Part shown: one piece after another, positions 42,218-44,918 of the stretch | Layout of the letters: the number at the start of each line of letters is the position of its first letter | Numbering within the stretch: the stretch's first letter is position 1 | NCBI RefSeq assembly: GCF_013177315.1 | Contig: NZ_CP053661.1 | Span: 3,162,001-3,226,000 of the forward strand | Origin: Thermoleptolyngbya sichuanensis A183 | GTDB lineage: Bacteria; Cyanobacteriota; Cyanobacteriia; Elainellales; Elainellaceae | Direction: 5' to 3' | Length of the DNA stretch: 64,000 bases | Translations under genes and position numbers: made by a program | Notes under the pieces: generated by a model | Told to the model about the DNA's origin: nothing | Databases searched by the model: none | What the model saw: the letters and a program-made list of their open reading frames with translations, nothing else

Positions 42218-42606
42218 AGCGAATGATTGACTCAGACGCAGAGAACTGAATCATGGTAGGTAAACCTCCACCATCAGCATTGCATATCGGGAGAAATCAA
42301 AGATTTTGGAAGTTAGGGCGATCGTCCCCAGTCACACAAAACTCGGAGTTCTGAGCCATCCTTCAGGCAAGAGCCTTATTTTGGCTTTAGAACTCCGAGT
42401 TTTAGCCCAGCGATCGCGCCCAGTCACACAAAACTCGGAGTTCTGAGCCATCCTTCAGGCAAGAGCCTTATTTTGGCTTTAGAACTCCGAGTTTTAGCCC
42501 AGCGATCGCGCCCAGTCACACAAAACTCGGAGTTCTGAGCCAGTCTTCAGGCAGAGCCTTCATTTTGACTTTAGAACTCCGAGTTTTAACAAGCGCCTAA
42601 CGCCAA
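42218..42606. other. Spacer filled by three hairpin repeats, 389 bp
   Basis: Between the 59-residue protein gene and the end of the PTPA-CTERM pseudogene. About 70% of it is the 92-bp repeat array (42327-42594). The first 100 bp show no feature. Confidence 0.5.
42327..42594. repeat. Three tandem 92-bp repeats, each with a 15-bp inverted repeat
   Basis: Units start at 42327, 42419 and 42511 with CCCAGTCACACAAAACTCGG. Each contains the arms AAAACTCGGAGTTCT and AGAACTCCGAGTTTT about 40 bases apart, and ends near a GCGATCGC-like junction. Units 1 and 2 are nearly identical; unit 3 has diverged between the arms (GCCAGTC, CAGGCAGAGCC). The array lies at the 3' side of two converging genes, where three large hairpins could terminate or stabilise transcripts. 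Confidence 0.9.
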
Positions 42607-43655
42607 TTAAGCCTCACTCTCTTGCTCAACCGCTTCCGCCTTCCGCTTCCGCAGTGCCATTGCACCCATGCCAACCAAACCAGGCAACAGAGCCGGAGTC
42701 GGAATGGAGTCAGGGTTCACAACCGTCCCATTCCTTGCCTGAAAGACATAACGTCCGTCTACAGTTGAGTTCAAGCGATTAGCAATTAGACTGTTTGAAC
42801 CACCATCTAAGAATGCTCCGTTAATAGCTGATCCGGGAAGCTCAAACGCCGTGTTAACTCCGTTAGAATAGCCCACCCGCTGACTGCCTGACACATCTCT
42901 GGAAACCCCTGATTTCTCGTAGGGGACGCTGGCCCAAAAGCTCCTCTGACCAAGCCCTCCGGCTCCAACTCAGGAGCTATGGGCTTCGATCCCAAGACAA
43001 CGAATTTTCTGGGCTTTCGGGACTTGTGTCAGGCAACCAGGCCCACCCGTGCAGAAAACCCGCCTAAACCATTATCGCCGCTGCTGGCATCACCTGTTTC
43101 CCACTGGATTTGGTCGTAGTTAAATTCAATGTCAAAGTTACCTGCACCCGTGTCAGAACGATCAATTAGCACAAGCTGGAATGTGTTTAGTTTGTCAGTC
43201 TGATTGCTGAAATACCCTACTCCGGGCCAATTAACACCGAATGCTGTACGTCCATCTACGGTGCCAGTACCAAAGGATACGATACCGGAACCAGATCCAC
43301 GGGTGTCTACATCTGCAAAGAACGGCGCAATGATTGGGGTGCTGGTGGACAGAAGGTTAAATGGAGTGAAAGTACCCAACGCGGCATTAAACGTTACGTT
43401 TCCGTTGTTGTTAACGAACAAGTCAGAGTAGGTACTTCCGAAGAAGTCAATTGAAAACCCAATACCTACTGCTCCTGTGGAACCATCATCGTTTGCAAGA
43501 AGCGTGTTGGCATTAAATACCCCTATACGCACAGCTGCAGCACTAGCCGATTCAGTAAGGGATATTGTTGTTGCCAAAAGAGCCATTAAACCGAGACTAG
43601 CACTGATCAATCTTGCTACTGACTTGGATTGACGCGAAGAAAAAGTAGCTATCAT
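42607..43655 (-). pseudogene. Nidogen-like PTPA-CTERM protein gene, split by a 161-bp element
   Basis: The first part (43655 to 43029) encodes a signal peptide (LISASLGLMALLATTISLTE) and a NIDO-type domain with VGIGFSIDFFGSTYSDLFVN and NGNVTF. The last part (to 42607) encodes RVGYSNGVNTAFELPGSAIN and the sorting signal IPTPALLPGLVGMGAMALRK, then RKAEA: the PTPA-CTERM motif, helix and basic tail of cyanobacterial exported proteins. A 161-bp element at 42880-43040 with a 9-bp duplication separates them and brings an early stop. Removing element plus one duplicate copy (170 bp) gives 293 uninterrupted codons across the junction SARVGYSN. The start ATG at 43655 follows AGGAG. Now the product lacks its sorting signal. 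Confidence 0.88.
42880..43040. mobile_element. 161-bp non-autonomous transposable element (MITE)
   Basis: The ends are CTGACTGCCTGACACA at 42880-42895 and, read inward from the other side, CTGGTTGCCTGACACA (43025-43040): 16-bp inverted repeats with two mismatches. Both sides carry the direct repeat GCCCACCCG (42871-42879 and 43041-43049), a 9-bp target-site duplication. There is no coding capacity. The CTG start, inverted repeat length and duplication length recall the IS4 superfamily, but no parent element is in the window. Confidence 0.9.
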
Positions 43656-43713
43656 TTGTACTCCTAATAAGTCAAGATAAGTCAAGGTGAATGGTAGGAG
43701 TCCCTGAGAGCTA

Positions 43714-44069
43714 TAGCAATTTCTAGCCTAGTGAGGCGTATTTTGATTAATCTATTCAGTGAATTTACTTTACCCTTAACTCAAATGCGACCCTACTCAC
43801 TAGATCTTAGACAAAAAATTATTGATGTCTACATTGAAGGGAATACGTCGCAACGTCAAATCGCTCAACAATTTCGAGTTGCTTACAGTTTCGTGCGAAA
43901 GCTGATCAAACAATATCGGGAAACAGGTGAGATTGCCCCCAAACGCCGCACTGAGCAAACGCCAACCAAATTAAGTAATGAGCAACTAGAGATCCTAAAA
44001 ACGATTGCTGAATCAAATCATGACGCGACATTGGCAGAGTTGTGTGACTTGCTGGAACAAAGGGTCGGT
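43714..44069 (+). mobile_element. Truncated IS630 copy made by the tandem duplication
   Basis: This is the first 356 bp of the IS630 at 44470, at the same offset of 756 bp. It includes the left terminal repeat and the first 95 codons of ORF A (from 43785), then breaks at 44069 into a copy of the PTPA-CTERM gene read backwards. A hybrid open frame continues past the junction to 44210 but its tail is antisense of the neighbouring gene. It has no right end and cannot transpose alone. Confidence 0.92.
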
Positions 44070-44411
44070 TGCAAAGAACGGCGCAATGATTGGGGTGCTG
44101 GTGGACAGAAGGTTAAATGGAGTGAAAGTACCCAACGCGGCATTAAACGTTACGTTTCCGTTGTTGTTAACGAACAAGTCAGAGTAGGTACTTCCGAAGA
44201 AGTCAATTGAAAACCCAATACCTACTGCTCCTGTGGAACCATCATCGTTTGCAAGAAGCGTGTTGGCATTAAATACCCCTATACGCACAGCTGCAGCACT
44301 AGCCGATTCAGTAAGGGATATTGTTGTTGCCAAAAGAGCCATTAAACCGAGACTAGCACTGATCAATCTTGCTACTGACTTGGATTGACGCGAAGAAAAA
44401 GTAGCTATCAT
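44070..44411 (-). pseudogene. Duplicated 5' fragment of the PTPA-CTERM gene
   Basis: This copy repeats the first 114 codons of the gene at 42607-43655, including the ribosome binding site, start ATG (44409-44411), signal peptide and the first part of the NIDO domain. At 44070 it runs into IS630 sequence read on the antisense strand and stops soon after (44013). It may still be expressed from its own copy of the upstream region as a short exported peptide. Confidence 0.88.
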
Positions 44412-44540
44412 TTGTACTCCTAATAAGTCAAGATAAGTCAAGGTGAATGGTAGGAGTCCCTGAGAGCTATAGCAATTTCTAGCCTAGTGAGGCGTATTTT
44501 GATTAATCTATTCAGTGAATTTACTTTACCCTTAACTCAA

Positions 44541-44918
44541 ATGCGACCCTACTCACTAGATCTTAGACAAAAAATTATTGATGTCTACATTGAAGGGAAT
44601 ACGTCGCAACGTCAAATCGCTCAACAATTTCGAGTTGCTTACAGTTTCGTGCGAAAGCTGATCAAACAATATCGGGAAACAGGTGAGATTGCCCCCAAAC
44701 GCCGCACTGAGCAAACGCCAACCAAATTAAGTAATGAGCAACTAGAGATCCTAAAAACGATTGCTGAATCAAATCATGACGCGACATTGGCAGAGTTGTG
44801 TGACTTGCTGGAACAAAGGGTCGGTGTTCGGATTGGCGTTTCGACGATGTTTCGTATGTTAGAGAAACTGAACTTAACCCTTAAAAAAAACGCTGTATCC
44901 CGACAAAAAGGAAACTGA
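44541..44918 (+). CDS. IS630 transposase, ORF A (helix-turn-helix part)
   Basis: This is identical in protein sequence to ORF A of copy A: 125 residues with an N-terminal helix-turn-helix (QRQIAQQFRVAYSFVRKLIK). The run of eight A at 44883-44890, near the end, is also the same length. This supports a functional shift site rather than a random mutation. Confidence 0.92.
   Translation: MRPYSLDLRQKIIDVYIEGNTSQRQIAQQFRVAYSFVRKLIKQYRETGEIAPKRRTEQTPTKLSNEQLEILKTIAESNHDATLAELCDLLEQRVGVRIGVSTMFRMLEKLNLTLKKNAVSRQKGN

Follow-up and report, generated by a model that had tools for sequence, protein, structure and literature searches.

The window analysed, a stretch of 64,000 nucleotides from Thermoleptolyngbya sichuanensis A183, carries on its minus strand the two parts of a single gene, separated by a 161-bp element with the character of a MITE (Table 1). 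The 5' part, which as a called open reading frame begins at a TTG (43685), contains a NIDO domain (match to PF06119). The 3' part, in which the frame is still open, shows the PTPA motif, hydrophobic stretch and basic end of a PTPA-CTERM tail and is recognised by NF033465 with 51.5 bits, the cut-off being 29, bearing out the identity proposed in the initial annotation. A literature search on PTPA-CTERM found no papers in the library searched.

Table 1. Features of the interrupted locus and of related elements in the genome. Positions without a prefix are those of the window.
Feature	Position	Strand	Remarks
5' part of gene	43029..43655	-	ATG at 43655; hydrophobic signal-like start and NIDO domain; ends VGLVA(stop) within the MITE
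3' part of gene	42607..42879	-	PTPA-CTERM tail; 273 nt including stop
MITE, 161 bp	42880..43040	.	left end CTGACTGCCTGACACATCT, IS right-end type; inverted right end CTGGTTGCCTGACACAAGT, IS left-end type
9-bp target duplication GCCCACCCG, copy 1	42871..42879	.	
9-bp target duplication GCCCACCCG, copy 2	43041..43049	.	
756-bp tandem duplication, first copy	43314..44069	.	5' part of gene, upstream region and front of IS630-like transposase gene
756-bp tandem duplication, second copy	44070..44825	.	
83-bp MITE, two copies	G000:C1 2763125-2763207, 4660818-4660900		9-bp duplication at each
Parent IS, intact copies	G000:C1 1727342-1730460, 2100719-2102033, 2561275-2562589, 3002200-3004813, 3592663, 4390675-4391989		
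MITE/IS composites	L031:1034-2453, L032:738-3961, L033, L035:1328-1593		

The boundaries of the element are exactly those described previously, with a perfect 9-bp duplication on both sides. Its termini, CTGACTGCCTGACACA and (inverted) CTGGTTGCCTGACACA, form a 16-bp inverted repeat with two mismatches, again as described. No transposase reading frame is present in the 161 bp, and as a single strand the element can form a long hairpin (z -3.4 for the RNA fold). A promoter scan inside the MITE gave one weak -35/-10-like match, a count no higher than chance, and a search for carriage by viruses or phages returned zero matches.

Removal of the element together with one copy of the duplication (170 bp) leaves 879 nt on the minus strand between the ATG at 43655 and the stop at 42607, that is, 293 codons (292 amino acids and the stop), with a junction reading SARVGYSNG; our recalculation agrees with the figures given in the initial annotation. 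In its present state the translation runs into the MITE, where the fourth codon is a stop, and closes with ...ARVGLVA; the interrupted product thereby lacks ~90 residues at its C terminus, the sorting tail among them. The 81 homologous segments that were aligned come from cyanobacteria and many other phyla, and every one is uninterrupted across the insertion point, where the typical reading is GGxSARxGxSNG. Because these segments run through the insertion point, the joined frame is ancestral. Many of the homologues end in PEP-CTERM-like tails. Relatives with the uninterrupted gene, which the initial annotation suggested looking for, are thus present as homologues. The 35 other genomes of the family that were searched yielded no orthologue of the NIDO part, the matches there being weak or confined to the C-terminal tail. 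An orthologous empty site was likewise sought in the family genomes and none was found; homologues from many phyla were used for comparison instead. These data support a MITE insertion that breaks the gene for an exported NIDO-domain PTPA-CTERM protein, a natural knock-out. As to the proposal that the truncated product loses surface sorting, the sorting tail is indeed lost through the stop in the MITE, and the product would then presumably not be sorted.

A perfect (100%) 756-bp tandem duplication lies just upstream of the MITE insertion and outside the element; it copied the 5' part of the gene along with the front of the IS630-like transposase gene that directly precedes it. It is either very recent or an assembly artefact, and its presence at this locus looks like accumulating damage. 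Just 3' of the PTPA-CTERM gene (42318-42588) a ~92-bp unit with a AAAACTCGGAGTTCT...AGAACTCCGAGTTTT palindrome stands in three tandem copies and occurs nowhere else in the genome.

A search for other copies, as recommended in the initial annotation, recovered from the 5.53-Mb single-contig genome 21 full-length copies of the MITE at 99-100% identity in the same chromosome, 13 of them identical. About seven older copies, with identity down to 72%, bring the total to ~28, although these counts rest on similarity searches in which not every initial candidate was scored, and very old copies may be missed. Eighteen of the 21 young copies, the window copy included, are flanked by their own target duplications (9 bp, with one reading 10). 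The copies lie at unrelated chromosomal sites, and their duplications all differ in sequence, with a bias towards G in position 1 and C in position 9. There are 84 occurrences of the terminus pattern as against one of the reversed control pattern, and they fall at MITEs, at a 1315-bp IS and at remnants of this IS. Since there are 21 full-length copies, 18 of them with duplications of their own, and the terminus pattern stands at 84 to 1, the arrangement in the window is not due to chance. The jump into the gene is a recent one. A further MITE, 83 bp long, shares these terminal sequences and is present twice in the genome and once in another genus (G022, L061). Relatives 161 bp in length were found at 73-77% identity in another genome of the family (G025), and a relative at 89%, with a perfect 9-bp duplication, on plasmids of Leptolyngbya sp. 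BL0902. The two refuting findings named in the initial annotation, relatives carrying the same 161 bp within a conserved gene and the absence of any further copy with such ends, were both looked for and not borne out: further copies with such ends are present, and the 161 bp are missing from homologues of the gene.

The same genome also contains the likely parent that the initial annotation had proposed looking for, a 1315-bp IS, traced through the terminus pattern, with a 403-aa transposase in a single reading frame. Six copies are intact and encode 100% identical proteins, and several further copies are interrupted or decayed. The transposase matches Pfam DDE_Tnp_1 (PF01609); its best NCBIfam match is NF033591 (E 2e-33), at 115.8 bits below the curated cut-off of 152 of this model, which is an equivalog model for one part of the IS4 family. 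The family is defined by a DDE transposase with a YREK signature (De Palmenaer et al. 2008, PMC2266710), and this signature, Y-(2)-R-(3)-E-(6)-K, is present as YALRFRVEELFLDSK at residue 268, with no frameshift. By the signature together with the Pfam and best NCBIfam matches the 1315-bp IS belongs to the IS4 family. The intact copies in the home genome are without matching 9-bp duplications of their own, several cases being explained by swapped ones. On the plasmids of Leptolyngbya sp. BL0902, IS copies 82% identical to the parent have perfect 9-bp duplications (two copies), a length within the range of about 7-13 bp for IS4-type elements.

The left end of the MITE is the same as the right end of the IS over 19/19 bp, and its right end corresponds to the IS left end over 17/19. 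Furthermore, the inner triplet is AGT at the IS left end but TCT at the IS right end, and the MITE carries one of each. Beyond the ends, similarity of the MITE interior to the parent IS is no longer than 11 bp. A derivation of the interior from the IS was accordingly considered and rejected, as the match is confined to the ends; hence the MITE did not arise by mere deletion from the IS as it now stands. The element is short, without a transposase gene, with terminal inverted repeats, duplications of constant length and ends in common with a resident autonomous IS, and the copies, duplications and shared ends together support its initial identification as a MITE. From the end matches, and from the BL0902 pair of MITE and IS with 9-bp duplications, the best inference is that the MITE is probably moved in trans by the 403-aa transposase. 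Weighing on the other side are the dissimilar interior, the lack of matching duplications at the intact IS copies of this genome and the transposase score below the NF033591 cut-off. The IS transposase would recognise the MITE ends and cut the element out, and the MITE would be pasted into a new target by a 9-bp staggered cut, giving the GCCCACCCG duplication. One recent jump of this kind would have landed after codon 202-205 of the NIDO/PTPA-CTERM gene and brought in the in-frame stop. We put the probability of this explanation as a whole, namely a non-autonomous MITE whose ends are one each of the left and right types of a resident IS, moved by that IS and breaking the gene, at about 0.92.

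Another resident transposase could in principle have moved the MITE, such as that of a 38%-identical relative which is abundant (~14 copies) and has ends, CTGCTTGACTGACAAAAC, of similar layout. Several of the 19 positions in these ends, however, differ from the MITE, while the 1315-bp IS fits at 19/19 and 17/19 with the distinct inner triplets TCT and AGT included, which makes the relative a very improbable source of the activity. Even less credible is that the 161 bp are a structural repeat, REP-like or an RNA element, kept for its function, with the split gene as a side effect. The strong foldback and the mostly intergenic position of the copies would suit such a repeat, but almost all young copies are bounded by ends of transposon type and by a target duplication of their own, 13 copies do not differ from one another and the termini agree with those of an IS in the same genome. 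The intergenic bias, moreover, is what selection against gene breakage yields.

The initial annotation had also raised the idea of a reversible switch through precise excision. In its fullest form such excision, driven in trans by the separate IS, would occur at a useful rate and repair the PTPA-CTERM gene in some of the cells, so that a surface protein would undergo phase variation. The element is flanked by a perfect duplication, its single strand can form a long hairpin, both halves of the gene are still open and candidate transposase genes are intact. Against this, the single assembly holds one state only, with no empty site in the family genomes, and intact duplications, seen at 18 sites, are usual for any recent insertion. 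The 5' end of the gene is abutted by the IS630-like element and the tandem duplication, which looks like decay rather than a maintained switch. IS4-type elements rarely excise precisely, and such excision is not known to be under regulation. With no second state seen, and with the flanking duplication permitting only rare precise excision in principle, we consider such switching of the protein, on and off in the population, highly unlikely and prefer a plain insertion of the MITE through its parent IS.

Twenty-six distinct sites were examined, 24 with the 161-bp element and two with the 83-bp one, and only the site in the window splits a long recognisable gene mid-way. One other insertion falls ~20 codons short of the end of an AhpC/TSA-cold-shock fusion protein of 280 residues. 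Such a distribution is in keeping with selection against harmful insertions and suggests that the interrupted gene can be dispensed with. The genome still has three other PTPA-CTERM genes and three exosortase genes, so that the sorting system as a whole is unaffected. The broken gene is accessory, with no orthologue in the family genomes searched, and its break is probably of little consequence. An altered extracellular matrix, as envisaged in the initial annotation, is thus not borne out, given the remaining PTPA-CTERM and exosortase genes and that nothing ties the protein to the matrix. As a mutation the insertion is clear, though of an ordinary kind.

The ends of the parent IS and of the MITE are strikingly similar to the outside end of Tn5, CTGACTCTTATACACAAGT. 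A literature search on Tn5 end sequences found no papers in the library searched. All four ends, two of the parent IS and two of the MITE, fit the published IS50 consensus CW------Y---CA-A--W- at 7/7 positions, and the YREK signature and 9-bp duplications are common to the parent IS and the IS50-like subgroup of the IS4 family, the published lengths being 8-9 bp for IS50 and 9 bp for IS10 (De Palmenaer et al. 2008, PMC2266710). Judged on these sequence features the parent IS is a candidate relative of the IS50-like subgroup, its nearest group, although its 1315 bp fall slightly under the IS50 range (1350-1550 bp) and within that of IS10 (1200-1350 bp; PMC2266710), and neither its transposase sequence alone nor a 5-sequence profile matched the solved Tn5 transposase chains.

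The element is a new example of an already known type, a MITE with a resident parent IS. Among cyanobacterial MITEs, Nezha is tied to another IS. Nezha and the other cyanobacterial MITEs reviewed in PMC10969869 are likewise short, palindromic and without a transposase gene. The same review cites MITEs inserted into the mcy microcystin cluster of Anabaena; there too a MITE inactivates an accessory gene, a different one, in a natural cyanobacterium. The present case documents a recently active MITE together with its likely parent IS, and the near-identical young copies and intact parent offer a simple test system for trans-mobilisation in an IS4-family element.

Further observations concern the copies of the IS. 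Orphan duplications pair between different parent-IS copies (GTGCGTAAG, GTCGATCCC, CTTCTGGTC and GGCTGCGAC); these swapped duplications are a mark left by exchange between recombining IS copies and, with it, by rearrangement of the chromosome. Four parent-IS copies (L032, L195, L196 and L197) contain an IS110-family element at one position (bp ~591 of the IS), so that either the same site was hit repeatedly or a nested unit has spread. In some composites a whole IS or a whole MITE, inserted at a common internal site, GCTATGG[AG]C, follows the first 105 bp of the MITE, and the composite of 1420 bp seems to have travelled as one piece from the outer end of the MITE.
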